Shown here piece after piece: positions 5,629 through 54,224 of a DNA stretch of 64,000 nt; position 1 is the first letter of the stretch; each line of letters opens with the position of its first letter. Origin of the DNA: Candidatus Saccharimonadota bacterium. GTDB taxonomy: Bacteria > Patescibacteriota > Saccharimonadia > Saccharimonadales > Saccharimonadaceae. The notes under the pieces were generated by a model. It was not told the origin of the DNA. It saw nothing but the letters and a program-made list of their open reading frames with translations, and searched no databases. The position numbers were made by a program, and so were the translations under genes. The stretch covers positions 62,001-126,000 of the forward strand of contig JAFWLO010000012.1 in the NCBI GenBank assembly GCA_017545595.1, written 5' to 3'.

Positions 5629-6815
5629 GAGCGAGAAATCCTTTCACATTCGTGATTAACGACTTCGACGAGGGCTTTTCCGGCTTCGCGGACGTTTTCT
5701 TCGGTGTTTAGGACACCGAGGGAAATGCGGAGAGAGCCGGCAATTTCCTCGGGAGAGAGGCCAATCGCGCGGAGAACATGAGAAGGTTTCCCCTTCGAGG
5801 CCGCACAAGCTGCGCCGGTCGAGAGGTATATTTCCCTTTCTTCAAGCTTGTAGATGATTCGCTCGGCATCGAGCCCCGGAAAGCAGAGAGGAAGGAAGTT
5901 TGAGAGCTTCGATTTTTTGTCGCCGAGGAAAAATGGAGGGATTTTCGAGTTTTCTAGCTCGGATTTAAGAATATCGGAGAGTTTTTTGTATTTTTTCGCA
6001 AGAGAGGCGGGATTTTTGAGTTGCTCACAGGCGGCCGCGAAGCCAATTACGCCTGGGATATTTTCTGTTCCGGAGCGAAGGTTTCTCTCTTGACCGCCAC
6101 CAAGGACTAGGGGGTTCAGACGAACGCCGTGACCGACATAGAGGGCGCCGACACCCTTCGGGCCGGAGATTTTAGCGGAATTTAAGGTTAAAAGATCGAC
6201 CCCAAGACGAGAAACGTTTATATCGAGCAGAGCGAGACCTTGAGAGGCGTCAGAATGAAGGAGAAGCTGATGAGGATTTCCGGATTTTAGGCGAGAGAGG
6301 CGTTCTTCTTTCAAGATTTGAGCAATTTCTGAAAGGGGTTGAATAGTCCCAAGTTCGTTATTTGCGAGAGAAACAGAGACCAGTTCGACCTCAGGCGAGA
6401 GTTTTTTCTTGAGGTCGAAGAGGTCGATAAGGCCGGTTTTTGTGACTTTTATAGTATCCCAAGCGTATTTTTTAGCGTTTTCTAGGACGGAAGCGTGTTC
6501 AGTCTCGAGAACGAGGACTTTCGGGGATTTTAAGGTATTTTTAAGGTTTTGTTCGGTTTCGAGATTATCCGGTGCGACAGCGGTGAAGGCAAGAGCGTTC
6601 GCTTCGGTCGCGCCGGAGGTGATTACCAGATCGTTCCCCTTTGCGCCTACGAGGTTTGCGATGGTTTGTTTTGCGGACTCGTAATCTTCTCTGACTCGTT
6701 TTGCAGAAAGATAAGGTGCAGAAGGATTAAAAAACTTCTCGGAAAAATACGGAAGCATTCTTTCGAGAACCTTTTTAGAAACAGGGGTGGCGGAAGCATG
6801 ATCGAGATAAATCAT
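5625..6815 (-). CDS. Cysteine desulfurase (NifS/IscS family)
   Basis: PLP enzyme that takes sulfur from cysteine and passes it on as a persulfide, here most likely to MnmA for tRNA thiolation. It starts MIYLDHASATP. The PLP lysine is in NSAKISGPKGVGALYV near residue 215; the usual His before this Lys (SAHK) is replaced by Ala. The persulfide cysteine is in STGAACAASKGKPSHVL near residue 340. It is 396 residues, normal for the family. The gene overlaps mnmA and has an extended -10 six bases before its ATG, so the pair should be a leaderless two-gene operon. Confidence 0.9.
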   Translation of the reverse strand: MIYLDHASATPVSKKVLERMLPYFSEKFFNPSAPYLSAKRVREDYESAKQTIANLVGAKGNDLVITSGATEANALAFTAVAPDNLETEQNLKNTLKSPKVLVLETEHASVLENAKKYAWDTIKVTKTGLIDLFDLKKKLSPEVELVSVSLANNELGTIQPLSEIAQILKEERLSRLKSGNPHQLLLHSDASQGLALLDINVSRLGVDLLTLNSAKISGPKGVGALYVGHGVRLNPLVLGGGQERNLRSGTENIPGVIGFAAACEQLKNPASLAKKYKKLSDILKSELENSKIPPFFLGDKKSKLSNFLPLCFPGLDAERIIYKLEEREIYLSTGAACAASKGKPSHVLRAIGLSPEEIAGSLRISLGVLNTEENVREAGKALVEVVNHECERISRS

Positions 6816-45846: not shown

Positions 45847-45879
45847 ATAAAAAAGACCCGGAGAACCGAGTCTTTTTTT
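45847..45879 (-). terminator. Terminator of the YcaO operon
   Basis: AAAAAGAC-CGG and CCG-GTCTTTTT form a stem with one mismatch and a 4-base loop; both strands end in T runs. It lies just after the Gly-rich gene (stop at 45883). Confidence 0.8.
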
Positions 45880-45882
45880 GAG

Positions 45883-46203
45883 TTACATCAGAAAACGTCC
45901 GAGGAGCAGAGCCAGAAGCGGAACGCCAATAATGAGCGCGAGCGAAAGCAGACAACTTGAGAAAATCGAAGCCTTTTTCGGGGCGCGCACAAAGGGCGGA
46001 ATCCTTCCGTCGGTACATCCAAAGCCCGGCCCGAAGAAGCCGTGGAATCCGTGAGAACCGTAGCTCGGCCCCATTCCTCCTGGACCTAAGCTAGGGCCGA
46101 ATCCTCTTCCAAATCCAGGACCTCCGGGACCGCCTGGGCCAAAACCTGGTCCACCGAATCCACCTGGCCCGGGACCCGGACCAAATCCAAATCCTCCGAA
46201 CAT
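45883..46203 (-). CDS. Gly/Pro/Phe-rich membrane-anchored protein, candidate YcaO substrate
   Basis: 106 residues. Residues 1-62 are almost only Gly, Pro and Phe with a few Ser, Tyr, His and Arg (MFGGFGFGPGPGPGGFGG at the start). A FGCTDGRIPP junction follows, and then a C-terminal membrane helix (about residues 80-104). There is no signal peptide. AAAGGAG precedes the ATG with ideal spacing. The gene starts 22 bases after the YcaO gene and shares its terminator, so the two form an operon. YcaO enzymes modify Cys, Ser, Thr or backbone amides of peptides, and Gly-rich substrates are known (microcin B17), so this protein is a plausible substrate. The role itself is inferred. Confidence 0.7.
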   Translation of the reverse strand: MFGGFGFGPGPGPGGFGGPGFGPGGPGGPGFGRGFGPSLGPGGMGPSYGSHGFHGFFGPGFGCTDGRIPPFVRAPKKASIFSSCLLSLALIIGVPLLALLLGRFLM

Positions 46204-46225
46204 ATTTTCTCCTTTCTCCGTAAAA

Positions 46226-47380
46226 TTACGGGAAGAAATGCGGAATATTCGATTCTTCCAAAGGCTCCTTAAAGGCGGGATGTCTCCACGGGAAGGCGCT
46301 TGAACCGAAAGTTATCGGAACAAGTTTGTCGGTTACGACGCGAATGACACGGAGCGGATGCTCGGCGGGATTATCAAGGCTAACCGTAATAAGGTCGAGG
46401 GCGCGATAAATCTCGTCGAGATTATCGTATTCCATAGTCCTTACCGGGAGATGTTTTTCCGAATCTTCGGGAAAGTTCAGGTATTTCCGGTTTTCCGGAT
46501 TACAGTAGAACAACCCGTGGAGATTCGCCTGGGTGCAATCCTCGGGAGAAAAGTCTGCAAACATCATGTTGTCATAACAGTTGAAATTGCCTTCGGCTTC
46601 TTCGATAGCTTTTTCTATCGCGAGAAGGCGCTCGCCTCTCATGGTCGAGCCTGCGCCACAAACGAAGGCAGGCCAGGAGTTGCCAGTTATCGTTGCGAGA
46701 AAAACTTCTCCGTAGGGCGAGGGGAGCTGAAAAACTTCAAGCTTCCGGCCAACGGATTTATAGAGATATTCCTTGTCTTTGACGAGGTTAATATCGCTGA
46801 TTTTTGCGACGATTTTTCTCTCGGGGTCGGCCCAGAAATGCATCAGGGCGTCCCGTTCAATAAGCTCTTTCACGGCGTTCTCAGTCGCGACATGCTTGTC
46901 GAAATGAGCAGCGACACCAGAGCTGGTTGCATGAAACAGACGACTTCGAGTTTTGAACCCGAAATAAACGAGATCAACAGGGACAAGACAGGTCTTGTCG
47001 GTCCAGAAACGGCGTCCGACCACCCACGGGATAGACTGGTTACGGCTAAACTTTTTAAGTTTAGCCTTTTTCCGCGCATCTTCAGAGAGCGGAGCGTAGT
47101 TCGTCGGATCGAAACAATCGTGGCTGGCGATTTTAAGGTCGCGCATTTTTCCGGTGACAACGTTCTTCGGAGGAATCGAGCAGATATAACGCTCAAAAGC
47201 CTCGCTTATCGCCTTGGTTTTTGCCTCGGCGATGGTTTTTCCGGTTGCATAAGCAGCCTCAAGATGTTCGCCATAGACGGCGACGCCGATAAATAACTGA
47301 GGATTAACTGCGGAGCGATAAACTCGCACCCCAGTAATCGGTTTTCCGTTTCCAACAACTTCAAGTAACCTTTCGTTCAT
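46226..47380 (-). CDS. YcaO-domain protein
   Basis: 384 residues. YcaO enzymes use ATP to activate peptide backbone amides, forming azolines, thioamides or amidines in RiPPs, or modifying proteins. ATP-site landmarks in order are AISEAFERYICS near residue 65, ATENAVKELIERDALMHFW near residue 165 and AIEKAIEEAEGNF near residue 260. The C-terminal part has PLRVIRVVTDKLVPITFG and ends NIPHFFP, a Pro-containing tail that is weakly like the PxPxP end of azoline-forming members. No ocin-ThiF/E1-like partner, TfuA or dehydrogenase is nearby, only the Gly-rich protein gene downstream. AAAGGAGGGG fixes ATG 47380; a promoter 70 bases upstream is near consensus. Confidence 0.85.
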   Translation of the reverse strand: MNERLLEVVGNGKPITGVRVYRSAVNPQLFIGVAVYGEHLEAAYATGKTIAEAKTKAISEAFERYICSIPPKNVVTGKMRDLKIASHDCFDPTNYAPLSEDARKKAKLKKFSRNQSIPWVVGRRFWTDKTCLVPVDLVYFGFKTRSRLFHATSSGVAAHFDKHVATENAVKELIERDALMHFWADPERKIVAKISDINLVKDKEYLYKSVGRKLEVFQLPSPYGEVFLATITGNSWPAFVCGAGSTMRGERLLAIEKAIEEAEGNFNCYDNMMFADFSPEDCTQANLHGLFYCNPENRKYLNFPEDSEKHLPVRTMEYDNLDEIYRALDLITVSLDNPAEHPLRVIRVVTDKLVPITFGSSAFPWRHPAFKEPLEESNIPHFFP

Positions 47381-47454
47381 ATTCCCCTCCTTTGAACAAA
47401 ACAAATGTAACATCAAAAAGTAAAGGTGCGCCACAGATAAGTGGCTCAATCTTC

Positions 47455-47483
47455 ATTATAGCACACTTCGGCAAAAAAGTCAA
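47455..47483 (-). promoter_or_regulatory. Promoter of the YcaO operon
   Basis: On the minus strand TTGACT (47478-47483) and TG-C-TATAAT (hexamer 47455-47460) are 17 bases apart. The leader of about 70 bases holds a GCCAC/GTGGC hairpin. Confidence 0.75.
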
Positions 47484-47549: not shown

Positions 47550-48842
47550 TTAGGATTGTTCTGAGGCTTCTAGAGTTTCCCCCTCTAGCTCGGCGAATTT
47601 TTGAGACATGGTTGGGTTGTTTCGAGTAAGTTTTTTAATCGTGAGGTCGTCGGCTTTGTTATTTGCGAGGCGGAGGTTATTCTCGCTCGAGACGAGGGCG
47701 TCTTTGATTTTTTGGAGATGGTCGATGGTTTTATCGATTTCTTCGATTGCGGTCTTGAATTTGTCGGAGGCGAGACGATAGTTCCTCGCGAAGGCAGATT
47801 TGAACTTGTTTATGTCTTCTTCGAAGTGGGTAATATCGAGGTTTTGGTTGCGAACTTCTGCGAGTTCGGTTTTATATTTGAGGGAATTCAAGGCAGCGTT
47901 TCTCAGGAGCGTAATCATTGGGATAAAAAATTGAGGGCGGATGACATACATCTTGTCGAAACGGTGAGAGACGTCGACGATACCGGAGTTATAAAGTTCG
48001 GAATCCGATTCGAGGAGAGAAACAAGAACGGCATATTCGCAATTTTTCTCCTTTCGGTCTTTGTCGAGTTCTTTGAAGAAATCTTCGTTTTTATGCTTTG
48101 TCGCGGTTGTTTCGTTCTCGTTTTTCATCTCAAACATGATCGAGATGATTTCTGTGCCGTTTTTGTCGGCTTCACGATAAATGAAGTCACCCTTCGAACC
48201 TGAAGAACGAGAGACCGCGTTGTCCTTCTCGAAATACGCGTTTTTGAAGGCGGTTGCGCGGAGACGATTGAACTCATTTTCGCAATGCTGTTCAAGAGTC
48301 TCTCCGACCATTTTCGTTGAGAGGCGAGCCTTGAGATCTTTCAAACGCTCAATTTCTTCATCTTTCAGCTTCAGTGCGGATTCGTATTTATCCTTCGTGG
48401 AGATTTCGCGGGTTTTTGACTCGGATTCTTTGAGTTTTAACTCGTTTTCGAGGGAAGAAACGGTTTTTTCGAGATTTGCGGTCGCGGTCGAGACGGCAAG
48501 AGCTTTCTCTGTCTCGGACTTTTCGGACAGGGACTTCAATTTGAGCCGGAGCTCAGATATTTCGGAATCTTTTTCAGTTTTAAGCTTTAAGATTTCCGAC
48601 TCTTTTTCGGTTTTTAGCCTAGAAATCTCGGATTCTTTTTCGGTCTTGAGTTTTATGTATTCGGAGCGAGCGGAATTTAGGCTAGCTTCGGATTTTAGTT
48701 TGTTTACTTCTTCGAGAGAATGAAGACGAGCTTCGAGCTCTTTAGAAAATTCAGCATCGCGAATTTGTTGAGAAATGTCGGCGTAACTTGTTTCGTTGAT
48801 TTCGAACTCTTTCCCGCAGTTCGGACATTTTATTTCTGGCAT
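47550..48842 (-). CDS. DUF2130 protein with zinc ribbon and coiled coil
   Basis: 430 residues. [12 protein letters not shown] half-zinc-ribbon is at the N terminus, followed by a long coiled coil (about residues 30-190) containing repeated [10 protein letters not shown] units. The DUF2130 domain follows, with [21 protein letters not shown] and [18 protein letters not shown]. It looks related to restriction-endonuclease-like folds (an E-x-K in FEMKNE). Its function is unknown; nucleic-acid processing is a possibility. AGGAGG precedes the ATG. Confidence 0.8.
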
Positions 48843-48923: not shown

Positions 48924-51900
48924 TTAGAAATCGTCGTTTGTTTCTTCTTCGGCGTAGCGCTTATGAGTTTTTCTGATAATGATTATAAATGAGCCAACGA
49001 TGAAGAAAGTTGTGATGCTCCACCAGAAGACGTCGAGCGTCTCGAACGCGTAGATGAGCGGAGAACCTTCAAGAAATGCACGGTAGGCTTCGATGACAGC
49101 TTTGTATTTTGCCATGAGGCTCGGCCCGACGAGAGTTTTTCCGTATTCAGAGAGATTATTGTAGGCAATTTGAGCGGCCTTGACGGCGGTTCTTGAATTG
49201 TAGTTTATCTGGTCGGGGTTCGGAAGTTTCGAGACCATATTCTCAAACTCGGCGACTTGGTCGAGGAGGTCGAGGGCGGAATTTATAATGGAAATTCTGC
49301 CGTTGATGTTGAAGAGGTCGCTTAGGGAGAAGTTTCCATCAAACACACCGAGAGCCTCTGCATAGCCAGACATCGCATCTTCGAGAGTAGTTTGGTCTTC
49401 GGGGCGGACGTTTTCTGGGGTGATTTCGGTCGCATGGTCATTGTTTTTGGCCTCTTCGAGAGCTTTTTCAGCTTCTTCGACGGTTTTTTCGAGGTCGTTC
49501 AACTTGTCTTCGAGGTCTTTGAGATGTTCTTTTTCTGGTTCGGTCGTATTTCCGCTATTTATAAGAGTTTCGATTTCTTCTTTCAAATCTTCGATGTCGT
49601 CTAAATCGTCTTTGTTGACGTGTTCTTTGTCGTATTCGTCAACTTTTTCTTCGACATCTTCGATTTGTTCTTTGATTTCTTCGATTCTCTGTTTGTCGCG
49701 ATTAAGACTATCAAGAATTTCTTCTAGCCTTCTCTTTTCTTCTTCAGTTAAGTGGTTGTAGTTTTCTTCTTTTATCGTGCCGATCGCGTCGAGGAGAGCG
49801 TCGATTTTTTCTTCATCATCAGAAGTTACGTGATCGACATCGGGAATCGTAGCGTAAGATTCTTCGATGATTTGCATACGCTCTTCAGCTTCATCGATTT
49901 CTTCGATTGTTTCTTCGTATTCTTCTAGCTTTTCTTCGATCAGTTCTTTCTCGGCACTTTCTGGATTTTCTCCTGAGATTGTTTCGAGATTCTCGATTTC
50001 TTGTTGAATAGCAGGTTTATCGTTGATGGTTTTATGTTCGAGGTCGTCGAGGAAGTTGATTTTTCCGGTTTTTATGGTGAGTTCACTCACGTTTCCGGCC
50101 ATATCCGTCACGGTTATCGTATTTGCGGAATCCTGATTCCCTGTGATATTAACTATTCCTGTCTCGGAATTTATAACTTCGCCGTTTAGCTTAATCTCTT
50201 TAATAACTTTATTGTCGGTTATGACGAGAGTTTGAGTCAGGTAATAAGTTTTTTCCGGTTCGAGTTCGTAAGTTTCTCCATTAGCAAGACCGAGGATGAC
50301 TGGAGCAGTAACGTCAAGCACGATTCCGTTGGTGTTTATGATAACTTCATTTCCAGCATTGTCGGTTATTTTATAATAGACGAGAAAATCTTTTTCTGGT
50401 TCGACGGAAACCTTCCCAGAGACTGGAGTCCAAGCGATATTTTGGAGCTCTTCTTCGGTTGGTTCGTTCAAAAGTACGGCGTAATCAACAGTTCTAACGC
50501 CAGACAAATCGTCGCTTGCGGAGATTTCGAAATCTGTCGTTTTGTTCGCAAAAATTCCGAAGGTAATGTTGTTTATAAACTTTGTCCAGGAATTTTCTTC
50601 GCTAGTGATTTCTCCGGAAGGGGCGGTGCGGTCGATTTTCACTTCAGCGCTTACGATTTCGCTCTCAAGCCCGGCGGAGCTTACGGCTTTATATTCGTAA
50701 ACTGTCGAATCGGTTTCTTCAACAAGGATTATTTCGTGATAATCTTTCCATTCTTCAGTTCCGGCTTCTCGGACATAAAGAGTAACAGGGCTCAGATTTT
50801 CAGCAACATTTCTCGCAGTCAAATCAACAGCTTCATTCGTCCAGGTCCCGAGTTCGTAACCGTGAGAATCAACTTCAACAACAGGTCTCACAGGATCTAT
50901 GTTTCTATATGTTACGACTTTGTCTGTCGTGTTTCCAAAGGAGTTTGTTGCGCGGAAGATATAAGTTCCATTCTCCGTGATGTCTGCAACGGTGTTTTCT
51001 CCATCAGTCAACTTCTCCCAAGTCTGGCCGCCATCTTTCGAGACGGAGATTTCGGAGACTTCAAAACGGTTGGACGCGGTTATGCTCGCTTCATCGAACG
51101 GAATCCATCTTTCAGTTTCGGAGACAACGTTGATTTCAGGGAAAGTTGTTCGACGGATTTCTTCCTCTTCTTGTTCGGCGATGTCGTCCAAAGCGTTTTC
51201 GATTTGCTCAATCTTTTCGAGGATTTCTTCGATTTCTTCGTCGGTATAGTTAGTCCCGAACTCGTCGAGGGCGTTTTCGAGGTCTTCCTTAGCTTTTTCT
51301 AAATCTTCCTTGTCGTCTCGGGTGTATCCTTCGGGGATAATTGGATCGACCTTGTTAATATTTTCGGTATGTTCGGCTTCGACTGCGTCGTCTATTCGGT
51401 CGAGAAGTTCGTTGATTTTGTCGAGTTCTTCTTGGACTGTTTCTCTTTCTTCGTCGGTTAAGTTATCTCCGCCGAGAAGCCCCTCTGCGATTTCCTTCAG
51501 GTCTTCTAGTTCTTCTTTGTCACTGGTTTTAATAACTTCTGTGTCGGTGTCGTTGACGATGTCGAGTTGTTCTTCTTTTTCTTCGACTTCGTCGAGGCGT
51601 TTCAACTTTTCTTCGAGTTCTTCTTTTTCGGTTACGAGATTGTTGATTTCTTCAACAGTCAAGTGGTTCCCGTCTTCATCCAACGTATCTTTAACTTCTT
51701 CAAGAAGGTTCTCGATTGTTTCGCGGTCGTCAGAGGTAACATGATCTATATCTGGAATCTCTTCCCCTCGATTATGCTCGTCTTTAATCTCTTCTTCGAG
51801 TTGATTGATTTTATCGACGAGATTTTCGTAAAGCTCTTCTAGTTCGTCGATAACTTCTTTTTCTTCGTCGGAAGCATGATCCCCTTCGTTATCTTCGATT

Positions 51901-54197
51901 TCTTCAAGCTTCGTTATGACTTCTTCAAGGGCTGGTTTATTGTCGGTTTTATAATTATCTTCGTTAATACCGAGGTCGTAATCGCCAATATTTCCGAGGT
52001 TTATTGTTAAAGTTGTTTCGTTCCCGGCTTTATCGAAGGCTACGATATTATATTTTCCATCTTCGGCTCCGGAAAGGTGAATAATGTTTGTTTCACTTAG
52101 CGGGGTCTCTGTGCCGTTAATAACGATTTTTTCAAGAGCCTTATTGTCGGTCACGATAATATCATGAGCGAGATAATATGTTTTTCCGTCTTCGAGGTCG
52201 TAGATATTTTCTGCGTTAGCATAACCTTGAATAAGCGCTTTCGTCGTGTCGAGGACAATTCCGTCGGTGTTTATGACGGAAACATTTCCAGCATTGTCGG
52301 TTATTTTATAATAGAGGATAAAATCTTTCTCAGGATTAATTCCGACGGGTTGTTCGGAGACATCTCGCCAACCTTCGGCGGACTCGGCGGATTCTTTACT
52401 ATTAAAGACTTCTTCAGAAACGAGATATTCAACCTTATTCACGCCTGACAGCTCGTCATTCGGGGCGATTTCGAAATATGTGGTTTTGTTAAAGAAGAGT
52501 CCGAAAGTGATTTGGTTTAAGAATTTATTCCAGGAATTTTCTTCGCTGGAGATTTCTCCGGTCGGAGCGGTTGAATCCTTCTTCAAAAGAACTTCAACGA
52601 CATCGCTTTCGATTCCCGCCTCGCTAACGGCTTTGAAATAGTATCTTTCTCCTTCGACAGAAGTTTCTCCGTTATAGACAACTTCTTTTCCTTCAACCCA
52701 ATTAACTTGGTCGGTCGAATGGTAATACTTCGTTTCGCCAACATTAACCGTTACGCTTTCTGCGGTTAGAGTTATTGGCTGGTTTGTCCAGGTTCCTTCT
52801 TCGTAACCGTGAGTGTTTACGGTTATAATCGGTTTCTTAGTATCAAGACTATTGTAAGTTATACAAGATTTATCGCTAACATTATCATAGATATCGGTCG
52901 CACGATAACAATAGGTCGCGTTCTCGGTAACATCTTTCTCGGCTCTGTCTCCTTCGACGATAACATTCCATGTTTCCCCGCCGTCAAGGGACTCTTCAAT
53001 GTTTTTAACTCCGGAAATGTCGGTCGCGGTAATTATAAGATGATCGCTGATTTGAATAATGTTTGGTTTTCCGTCAAGCGTAACTTCTGGAGGGACGGTT
53101 TCGTTCAAAGTATGAAAGTCGACAACTTGACTACTGATGCTCTGGCCTTCATTGTTTTCGGCCCTAACACGGGTGTAATAAGTTGTATCTCCCGTCAACC
53201 CTTCAGCAACTAGATTCGTTGAGTTGACTAATCGGTTATTGTAATCTGGCAAAATGTTTTTGAACTCTGGATCGAGAGCTACATCAAGACGATAACTTGT
53301 TGCGTTCGGGACGGCATCCCAAAAGATATTCGCGGTTGTTTCTGTAACATTATTGACGTAAATTACTTCGACTGGATTCGGCGCAGAAACGTTGACCATG
53401 CCGGTTATGGCGTAAATGCCACAATAAATTCCGGAAATGTTGCTAGAATCGTTCCTTCCGGTCAAAACAAGATCGATGGAACTGACAAGCTTTTTAGAGT
53501 CCACGCGAATGTTTGCGGATTGGAGGTACGGAGCGCCGTCGGTCTCACCCTCATAAATATAGGAGGAAGATGTAGAGCTCGAACCTCTCCCAGAGCTACC
53601 CGAAGAACTTTTTACAACTTGGCGACGGGCGAGATTCGGCCATTTATAAACACCTTCGACAGGGGTCGAATCGTACCAGTCATAGAGGCGATAAGATGTT
53701 TCGTCGACGGAGCCGTCGGTGTAGTTGACGCGGACGGCAAAGTTCGCATAGTTCCCTTCTCCGGGACCGCCGGCTGTTCCAAGAACGTAAAGTTTTTCGT
53801 AAGCACCAATAGTGTCGAGATTAATCGTGGTGGAGGCGTGATTTTCGTAGAGGCGAATAGTGTCATTCCCGTCGTAGTTGCTGGGTCCAGTCCAGCTCAT
53901 ATTATAAGGAACACCATCAATAGAAAGAGAACCGGATGGGTCAAGCCCGCCGGCGGACTTTTGAGAGGCAGAATAGAAGGCAGCCCAAGCGTCGAGACCT
54001 TTCGCAGCGACGACAGTATCGAAGCTTTCAGACGCACCCCAAATCGAGTTTCCGTTCAAAGAATTGGAAGAGATTTTAAGGGATTCGTAATGGCTACTCG
54101 CGGCAGTCGAGGGTCTTTTCTTAAAAACAAAAAGCGACCCAAAAATAAGGCCGACCGCTAAAAATGATAATAAAATGGTTTTTATTCTTTGTTTCAT
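48924..54197 (-). CDS. Giant surface protein with a duplicated Ig-like/helical module
   Basis: 1757 residues. A signal peptide or anchor (about residues 5-25) is followed by an N-terminal lectin-like jelly-roll (WTGPSNYDGNDTIRL), a Ser-rich linker, a fibronectin type III domain (TETTANIFWDAVPNATSYRL) and then two copies of a large unit. Each unit has Ig-like domains (HGYEEGTWTN / HGYELGTWTN; YYKITDNAGN in both; FLNQITFGLF / FINNITFGIF) and a long acidic helical region. A further helical domain and a C-terminal membrane helix with a charged tail follow. It probably projects from the cell and binds a partner. The ATG at 54197 follows GGAGG. It has its own TTGACA/TACAAT promoter. The acidic codons create long antisense frames that are not genes. 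Confidence 0.85.
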   Translation of the reverse strand: MKQRIKTILLSFLAVGLIFGSLFVFKKRPSTAASSHYESLKISSNSLNGNSIWGASESFDTVVAAKGLDAWAAFYSASQKSAGGLDPSGSLSIDGVPYNMSWTGPSNYDGNDTIRLYENHASTTINLDTIGAYEKLYVLGTAGGPGEGNYANFAVRVNYTDGSVDETSYRLYDWYDSTPVEGVYKWPNLARRQVVKSSSGSSGRGSSSTSSSYIYEGETDGAPYLQSANIRVDSKKLVSSIDLVLTGRNDSSNISGIYCGIYAITGMVNVSAPNPVEVIYVNNVTETTANIFWDAVPNATSYRLDVALDPEFKNILPDYNNRLVNSTNLVAEGLTGDTTYYTRVRAENNEGQSISSQVVDFHTLNETVPPEVTLDGKPNIIQISDHLIITATDISGVKNIEESLDGGETWNVIVEGDRAEKDVTENATYCYRATDIYDNVSDKSCITYNSLDTKKPIITVNTHGYEEGTWTNQPITLTAESVTVNVGETKYYHSTDQVNWVEGKEVVYNGETSVEGERYYFKAVSEAGIESDVVEVLLKKDSTAPTGEISSEENSWNKFLNQITFGLFFNKTTYFEIAPNDELSGVNKVEYLVSEEVFNSKESAESAEGWRDVSEQPVGINPEKDFILYYKITDNAGNVSVINTDGIVLDTTKALIQGYANAENIYDLEDGKTYYLAHDIIVTDNKALEKIVINGTETPLSETNIIHLSGAEDGKYNIVAFDKAGNETTLTINLGNIGDYDLGINEDNYKTDNKPALEEVITKLEEIEDNEGDHASDEEKEVIDELEELYENLVDKINQLEEEIKDEHNRGEEIPDIDHVTSDDRETIENLLEEVKDTLDEDGNHLTVEEINNLVTEKEELEEKLKRLDEVEEKEEQLDIVNDTDTEVIKTSDKEELEDLKEIAEGLLGGDNLTDEERETVQEELDKINELLDRIDDAVEAEHTENINKVDPIIPEGYTRDDKEDLEKAKEDLENALDEFGTNYTDEEIEEILEKIEQIENALDDIAEQEEEEIRRTTFPEINVVSETERWIPFDEASITASNRFEVSEISVSKDGGQTWEKLTDGENTVADITENGTYIFRATNSFGNTTDKVVTYRNIDPVRPVVEVDSHGYELGTWTNEAVDLTARNVAENLSPVTLYVREAGTEEWKDYHEIILVEETDSTVYEYKAVSSAGLESEIVSAEVKIDRTAPSGEITSEENSWTKFINNITFGIFANKTTDFEISASDDLSGVRTVDYAVLLNEPTEEELQNIAWTPVSGKVSVEPEKDFLVYYKITDNAGNEVIINTNGIVLDVTAPVILGLANGETYELEPEKTYYLTQTLVITDNKVIKEIKLNGEVINSETGIVNITGNQDSANTITVTDMAGNVSELTIKTGKINFLDDLEHKTINDKPAIQQEIENLETISGENPESAEKELIEEKLEEYEETIEEIDEAEERMQIIEESYATIPDVDHVTSDDEEKIDALLDAIGTIKEENYNHLTEEEKRRLEEILDSLNRDKQRIEEIKEQIEDVEEKVDEYDKEHVNKDDLDDIEDLKEEIETLINSGNTTEPEKEHLKDLEDKLNDLEKTVEEAEKALEEAKNNDHATEITPENVRPEDQTTLEDAMSGYAEALGVFDGNFSLSDLFNINGRISIINSALDLLDQVAEFENMVSKLPNPDQINYNSRTAVKAAQIAYNNLSEYGKTLVGPSLMAKYKAVIEAYRAFLEGSPLIYAFETLDVFWWSITTFFIVGSFIIIIRKTHKRYAEEETNDDF
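49450..53100. repeat. Internal duplication in the giant surface protein gene
   Basis: Two units, roughly 51160-53100 and 49450-51155, encode the same order of Ig-like and helical domains about 650 residues apart. Both keep an identical 18-base stretch (CCAGGAATTTTCTTCGCT) near 52530 and 50585. Divergence between the copies shows an old duplication. Confidence 0.75.
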
Positions 54198-54224
54198 TTT
54201 ACCTCCAAAATACTCCACATGTTT

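Follow-up and report, generated by a model that had tools for sequence, protein, structure and literature searches.

A lone YcaO enzyme encoded with a Gly-rich, predicted membrane-anchored protein: a candidate minimal two-gene RiPP-type system in Saccharibacteria

YcaO systems closest to the locus

On the prevailing view, a YcaO enzyme cannot locate its substrate without a partner that binds the leader. The locus described here, found in a 64,000-nucleotide stretch of the genome of a very small gut bacterium of the Saccharibacteria (the window), consists of a ycaO gene and the gene of a Gly-rich protein with a predicted C-terminal membrane helix, and it can be compared with several known systems. 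In the TOMM (linear azol(in)e) family, the YcaO is accompanied by a C protein (E1-like/ocin-ThiF with an RRE) or occurs as a CD fusion, an FMN dehydrogenase is optional, and a small precursor rich in Gly and Cys/Ser/Thr is encoded near the YcaO. Neither the C protein, the CD fusion nor the dehydrogenase was found in the window's own genome, and a precursor of this kind is present in the corresponding operon of a relative (genome G656) but only weakly represented in the window. Following PMC4603692, the window pair is countable only if the Gly-rich partner is accepted as the precursor. Microcin B17 (McbA and McbBCD) resembles the pair in its Gly-rich core with Gly-Cys and Gly-Ser runs and in the similar fold of McbD (Foldseek, 2e-12), but McbA is composed of a leader and a soluble core, and the window is without equivalents of McbB (RRE/E1-like) and McbC (dehydrogenase). 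In YcaO-TfuA thioamidation (thioviridamide type, McrA glycine), the YcaO fold is shared and Gly can be the modified residue, whereas the window genome is without TfuA and the window YcaO lies in the SagD-like azoline clade. The streptamidine-type stand-alone YcaOs of actinobacteria are likewise unfused, have a Pro-containing C-terminus and are encoded near a small precursor gene, but these systems include the cryptic RRE/E1-like partner AmiB, a hydrolase, a dehydrogenase and a leader, none of which the window pair has (PMC8442711).

Bottromycin is the closest case in arrangement, since its YcaOs work without a partner on a core-first precursor (PMC8442711, PMC4603692, PMC7136475). There, as at the present locus, no E1-like or TfuA partner accompanies the YcaO, the leaderless core lies at the extreme N-terminus, and the C-terminal region may act as a follower. 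However, bottromycin involves two YcaOs, methyltransferases, hydrolases and the small soluble precursor BtmD, whereas the window has one YcaO and a partner with a C-terminal transmembrane helix; the likeness is one of arrangement rather than of demonstrated sequence kinship. The RRE-SagB-YcaO fusions of Saccharibacteria, Lactococcus fujiensis and others share with the window enzyme the YcaO clade, a C-terminus of PH[FY]F type and a Gly-rich partner next door. These fusions carry their own RRE and FMN dehydrogenase, and are associated with small soluble peptides of leader and Gly/Cys core, their putative substrates, and often with a DUF2268 protease; in the window, the YcaO stands alone (without two of the three domains), no DUF2268 gene lies beside it, and the partner is membrane-anchored and leaderless. 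In the open-access literature, no precedent was found for a membrane-anchored YcaO precursor, nor was any description of a YcaO peptide system in Saccharibacteria, one soil survey touching both subjects. The initial annotation of this DNA had suggested that a minimal pair with a membrane-tethered substrate would be a new arrangement. A partnerless YcaO acting on a core-first precursor has its precedent in bottromycin, but a membrane-anchored partner and a descent from RRE-SagB-YcaO fusions seem new.

The operon and its two products

The two genes form a compact minus-strand operon that fills a 1.6-kb stretch, with 22 nt between them. The features, from upstream to downstream, are as follows:

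47455..47483, minus strand: sigma-70-type promoter TTGACT-17 nt-TATAAT with extended -10 TG, 11/12 consensus matches
47386..47393, minus strand: strong Shine-Dalgarno sequence AAAGGAGG of the ycaO gene, read from the sequence
46226..47380, minus strand: lone YcaO, ATG 47380 to stop 46226, 384 aa, identified by PF02624, AF2, Foldseek and motifs
46209..46215, minus strand: strong Shine-Dalgarno sequence AAAGGAG of the Gly-rich gene, read from the sequence
45883..46203, minus strand: Gly/Pro/Phe-rich protein, ATG 46203 to stop 45883, 106 aa, the proposed substrate; counterpart at the same operon position in G656 (L059:7088-7390)
about 45849..45879, minus strand: intrinsic terminator common to both genes, hairpin and U-tract, -18.6 kcal/mol, z -6.0

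Re-reading of the sequence agreed with the initial annotation in the coordinates, the gene lengths, the 22-nt gap, the near-consensus promoter and the shared terminator after the Gly-rich gene. The operon contains no further gene, no processing or export gene was seen in it, and no other precursor candidate was seen at the window locus.

By sequence and structure model, the product of 47380-46226 (-) is a genuine YcaO enzyme. The comparison with the YcaO profile, which the initial annotation had named as a check, gave a strong match to Pfam PF02624 (E = 7.4e-30, 105 bits, cut-off 25.7). The best NCBIfam model was TIGR03604 (SagD) with 99 bits, under its 219-bit cut-off, and the McrA-glycine thioamidation model gave a sub-threshold match (50 bits, cut-off 365). 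An AlphaFold (AF2) model built with 18 relatives reached a mean pLDDT of 89.1; its Foldseek matches were LynD (8e-20), MusD, the Methanopyrus (M. kandleri) YcaO, TruD, the Methanocaldococcus YcaO, McbD and E. coli YcaO, and all matches below 0.001 were YcaO proteins. The ATP-site motifs and the Pro-containing end noticed earlier are both in place: the ATP/Mg-site motifs ExxER (E60, E63, R64) and ELIERD (E172, E175, R176) are intact and align with EAVER and ELVERD of LynD, and the C-terminus is PHFFP. The 384-aa chain is without an N-terminal domain, RRE, E1-like domain or dehydrogenase domain, and it is the sole YcaO of its own genome. A housekeeping role of the S12/RimO type was ruled out, since the S12 model gave a score of 12 (cut-off 700) and just 13 of the 174 genus genomes encode any YcaO. 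A phage origin was likewise ruled out, with neither a phage nor a viral-contig match, and so was a plasmid origin, the plasmid matches being distant YcaOs only (24-30% identity).

The lack of an E1-like or TfuA partner, already remarked on at the locus, holds for the whole genome (745 kb, 98.8% complete), where the dehydrogenase is missing as well. No ThiF/E1-family protein was found in this genome by profile search, no TfuA (PF07812; the control Methanosarcina was positive) and no PF00881 nitroreductase-type dehydrogenase (14/14 control genomes were positive). Since the genome is without a nitroreductase-family dehydrogenase, azoles (-20 Da) are unlikely products, and azolines (-18 Da) or amidines are possible.

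The second product, as the initial annotation described it, is a 106-residue protein with a Gly/Pro/Phe tract, a Cys-Thr-Asp junction and a C-terminal helix. The tract extends from residue 2 to about residue 63 and is followed by a short basic stretch and one predicted membrane helix at 84-102 (mean hydropathy 2.65), with Cys63-Thr64-Asp65 at the tract junction. The protein contains 33 Gly (31% overall), 2 Cys, 7 Ser and 1 Thr; one Cys belongs to the tract and the second sits in the helix, and the heterocyclizable residues in the tract number four to five (Ser38, Ser47, Ser50, Cys63, Thr64). It is the only one of the 136 window ORFs of at least 80 aa to have at least 20% Gly. The tract uses mixed Gly, Phe and Pro codons and is therefore no simple DNA repeat; the reading frame offers no start codon further upstream, so the protein is without an N-terminal leader. 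Based on the basic residues before the helix and the positive-inside rule, the tract is predicted to face the cytoplasm. Profile searches gave no family match for this protein, and a search for sequence-level homologues among 99 genus genomes, of a type insensitive by nature, returned noise only.

Recurrence in a relative and probable origin of the enzyme

A search with the window YcaO through the full set of 174 genus genomes revealed one relative, G656 (public record JAFRJG010000003.1, goat jejunum Saccharibacteria RGIG2520), with this operon in the corresponding slot. The gene order there is a surface protein of about 1720 aa, promoter, YcaO, 25 nt, a 100-aa protein, a terminator-like hairpin, tRNA-Cys and tRNA-Leu. 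The promoter matches the consensus at 12/12 positions and occupies the same place as in the window, and the 428-aa YcaO is 39% identical to the window enzyme and also ends in PHFFP. The partner begins MPGGCAGGCAGGCAGGCGFGCGFGCGGC and contains 37 Gly and 14 Cys in its 100 aa, with a C-terminal hydrophobic segment. Its tract is rich in Gly and Cys and resembles a thiazole-peptide precursor, whereas the window tract has Phe and Pro where G656 has Cys. The tail is less clearly a membrane helix: its best 19-residue segment, at 82-100, scores 2.43, compared with 2.65 for the window helix, and under a stricter segment finder the peak was weaker and lay at 73-91. As 28 of 500 shuffles that kept the tract/tail architecture aligned as well as the two Gly-rich proteins themselves, we infer their homology from position and layout rather than from demonstrable sequence similarity. 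Since a relative carries the same pair, the enzyme probably modifies its membrane-anchored partner in place rather than making a free antibiotic-like peptide.

The locus is marked by a 1764-aa fn3-like, acidic coiled-repeat surface protein with a C-terminal anchor (window 48924-54218), close orthologues of which occur in only 10 of the 174 genus genomes. The slot beside it was read in all ten orthologue-bearing genomes, which replaced the insensitive sequence search with the Gly-rich protein. An intact YcaO with the Gly-rich protein is present in two of the ten slots (window and G656). In the G560 slot (L030:3382-4221) the YcaO is truncated at 279 aa, and in the G581 slot (L031:7685-8887) it has lost ExxER and ERD but keeps a full-length frame and a good Shine-Dalgarno sequence; the Gly-rich gene is absent from both. 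The other six slots have neither YcaO nor Gly-rich gene and run on to tRNA genes, with just a DUF2130 gene between in G652. The recurrence in relatives proposed earlier as a check was thus borne out by G656, with the same locus and the same order, and no orphan Gly-rich gene (one without an intact YcaO) was found in the eight other slots. The Gly-rich gene therefore occurs in 2/2 slots with an intact YcaO and in 0/8 without (Fisher p = 0.022, from small numbers uncorrected for shared ancestry). In the window, a DUF2130 gene (47550-48842) separates ycaO from the surface-protein gene, as also in G560 and G652; it is absent from that place in G656 and G581 and is an independent insertion or loss in the same locus.

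YcaO proteins are encoded in the 13 genomes mentioned above as five lone enzymes (window, G656, G560, G581 and G621) and otherwise as long fusions, that of G644 being split in the assembly. The lone YcaO of G621 lies at another locus, has no visible partner and carries Lys in place of the first motif Glu. From N- to C-terminus, the fusions of the genus are composed of a domain of about 110 residues, a SagB-type nitroreductase that scores above the cut-off, and YcaO. At the sequence level, the N-terminal domain matched nothing significantly in the PDB, but its model (pLDDT 84) had PbtF RRE and TruD as best matches, followed among others by TigE, McbB, MibB and MccB; the E-values are individually weak (1.6e-3 at best), and most of the top matches are RRE-bearing RiPP enzymes. 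This domain thus models as an RRE. Small precursors such as MKKLLDVKRTPYDVNVAAAGNCGGAGCGSGCGGGCGG (leader and Gly/Cys core, McbA-like) adjoin the fusions, often together with a DUF2268 protease gene, and the Saccharibacteria fusions with their adjoining precursors are apparently complete thiazole-peptide clusters in few genes.

In the YcaO-domain tree, which contains several long branches and some nodes of moderate support, all lone enzymes group in a single clade (94/84) within a backbone of fusions, and the window and G656 enzymes are sisters (99/85). In the simplest reading, RRE and dehydrogenase apparently disappeared from the enzyme, and the substrate shed its leader and acquired a membrane tail.

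The fusion family comprises L033, L034, L035, L036, L037, L061 and L062 in the genus, L038-L041 in the family, and L090, L094, L096 and L097, together with L095 from Lactococcus fujiensis, L098 from Tenericutes and L099 from Propionibacterium. In L094, two different Gly/Cys-rich precursor genes on opposite strands (2687-2866 and 5907-6134) flank one RRE-SagB-YcaO synthetase and a DUF2268-like gene. Operons of C-A-D-B type were observed in other families or genera of the order (L126, L128, L129, L130, L083), where a SagA-like precursor (MKALxTQFDDxRLSNAVATPTCSSCCCCCCCLATS...) is extended by a domain of some 150 residues in which several membrane helices are predicted. Such precursors would be membrane-fused TOMM precursors and a second, independent case of an anchored substrate in the same lineage.

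Proposed mechanism and alternative explanations

The explanation that we favor, with somewhat better than even confidence, is that a YcaO without RRE and dehydrogenase modifies a leaderless, membrane-tethered substrate, which would make the pair a minimal two-gene RiPP-type system. The C-terminal helix would take the newly made Gly-rich protein into the membrane while the tract stays in the cytoplasm, and the YcaO translated from the same mRNA would activate backbone amides of the tract with ATP. The likeliest chemistry would be azoline formation (-18 Da per site) at Cys, Ser or Thr next to Gly. Up to about a dozen such sites may exist in the Gly-Cys repeats of G656; in the window, S38, S47, S50, C63 and T64 would be the only ones unless the chemistry is that of a thioamide or amidine. 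The system would have arisen inside the clade of single-chain RRE-SagB-YcaO synthetases, with the recognition of a leader by an RRE replaced by operon co-translation and membrane tethering, or by direct recognition of tract or tail. Without RRE and leader, recognition would have to lie in the tract, in the tail as a follower, or in proximity.

The pairing proposed by the initial annotation is strengthened by the profile match, the recurrence in G656 and the missing partners; the modification of the Gly-rich protein is what we infer on this basis. The weakest point is the small number of candidate sites in the window. Because the window tract is almost without Cys, azoline chemistry is much more plausible for the G656 protein than for that of the window. 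Further observations count against the favored explanation: the complete pair is present in only two of the 174 genus genomes; the alignment of the two Gly-rich proteins does not exceed that of architecture-keeping shuffles; the operon shows no gene for processing or export; the lone YcaO of G621 has no visible partner, though its first motif Glu is Lys; and a lone YcaO is normally low in activity without its partner, the C protein potentiating the reaction by orders of magnitude (PMC4603692).

The scarcity of sites is also the point on which an unlikely alternative rests, namely that the pair is a decaying TOMM remnant, whose ancestor had a Cys-rich substrate as G656 still has, and whose window substrate lost its cysteines and left the enzyme with little or nothing to do. 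It accords with the damage in three of the five lone YcaOs of the genus (G560 truncated, G581 without ExxER/ERD, G621 with E to K) and with the Phe and Pro of the window tract at the places of the G656 cysteines. However, the window enzyme is untruncated, keeps both motifs and the conserved PHFFP end, and is preceded by a near-consensus promoter and a good Shine-Dalgarno sequence; the Gly-rich gene shows no damage either, its tract being regular and its codons mixed. In a 745-kb genome, an unselected substrate should erode quickly.

It is still less likely that the YcaO modifies another protein or peptide and that the Gly-rich protein serves as its membrane anchor, as an immunity or export factor, or as a chaperone. 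In its favor, the Gly-rich protein is identified as the substrate by adjacency and composition, its window tract contains little Cys, Ser and Thr, and some TOMM precursors are encoded away from their enzyme (PMC4603692); but the G656 partner resembles a TOMM core in its Gly/Cys composition, the Gly/Cys precursor of the fusion relatives directly adjoins the enzyme gene, and the window locus offers no rival precursor candidate.

A different chemistry on the same tract, in which backbone thioamides or amidines (+16 Da or -18 Da without Cys) are installed and Cys is not needed, appears very unlikely. Both thioamides (McrA) and amidines (bottromycin, klebsazolicin, streptamidine) are known products of YcaOs (PMC8442711), Gly predominates in the window and G656 tracts alike, and the sub-threshold match of the window YcaO to the McrA-glycine thioamidation model points the same way. 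Against this, the genome has no TfuA, the nearest clade is of SagD/azoline type with Gly/Cys precursors, and the amidine reaction requires a nearby free amine. Chance neighbourhood of an unmodified Gly-rich membrane protein and an unrelated YcaO, which would fit a protein without a family match or a sequence-level homologue among the 99 genus genomes, was rejected, because the two genes lie 22 nt apart between one promoter and one terminator, G656 repeats the layout with a YcaO 39% identical, and no orphan Gly-rich gene was found in the eight other slots.

In the favored explanation, partner domain and leader are gone together and a membrane anchor is there instead, which makes the pair a natural test of the minimal needs of a YcaO enzyme. 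More tentatively, YcaO substrates may include a class of proteins that stay in the membrane and are not released as peptides. An RRE-free YcaO would then locate the leaderless Gly-rich domain of such a protein by tethering and operon proximity, and the product would be a permanently modified component of the membrane or envelope of an epibiotic bacterium. If true, RiPP chemistry would reach beyond secreted peptides to proteins fixed in the membrane, here in epibiotic bacteria of ultra-small size.
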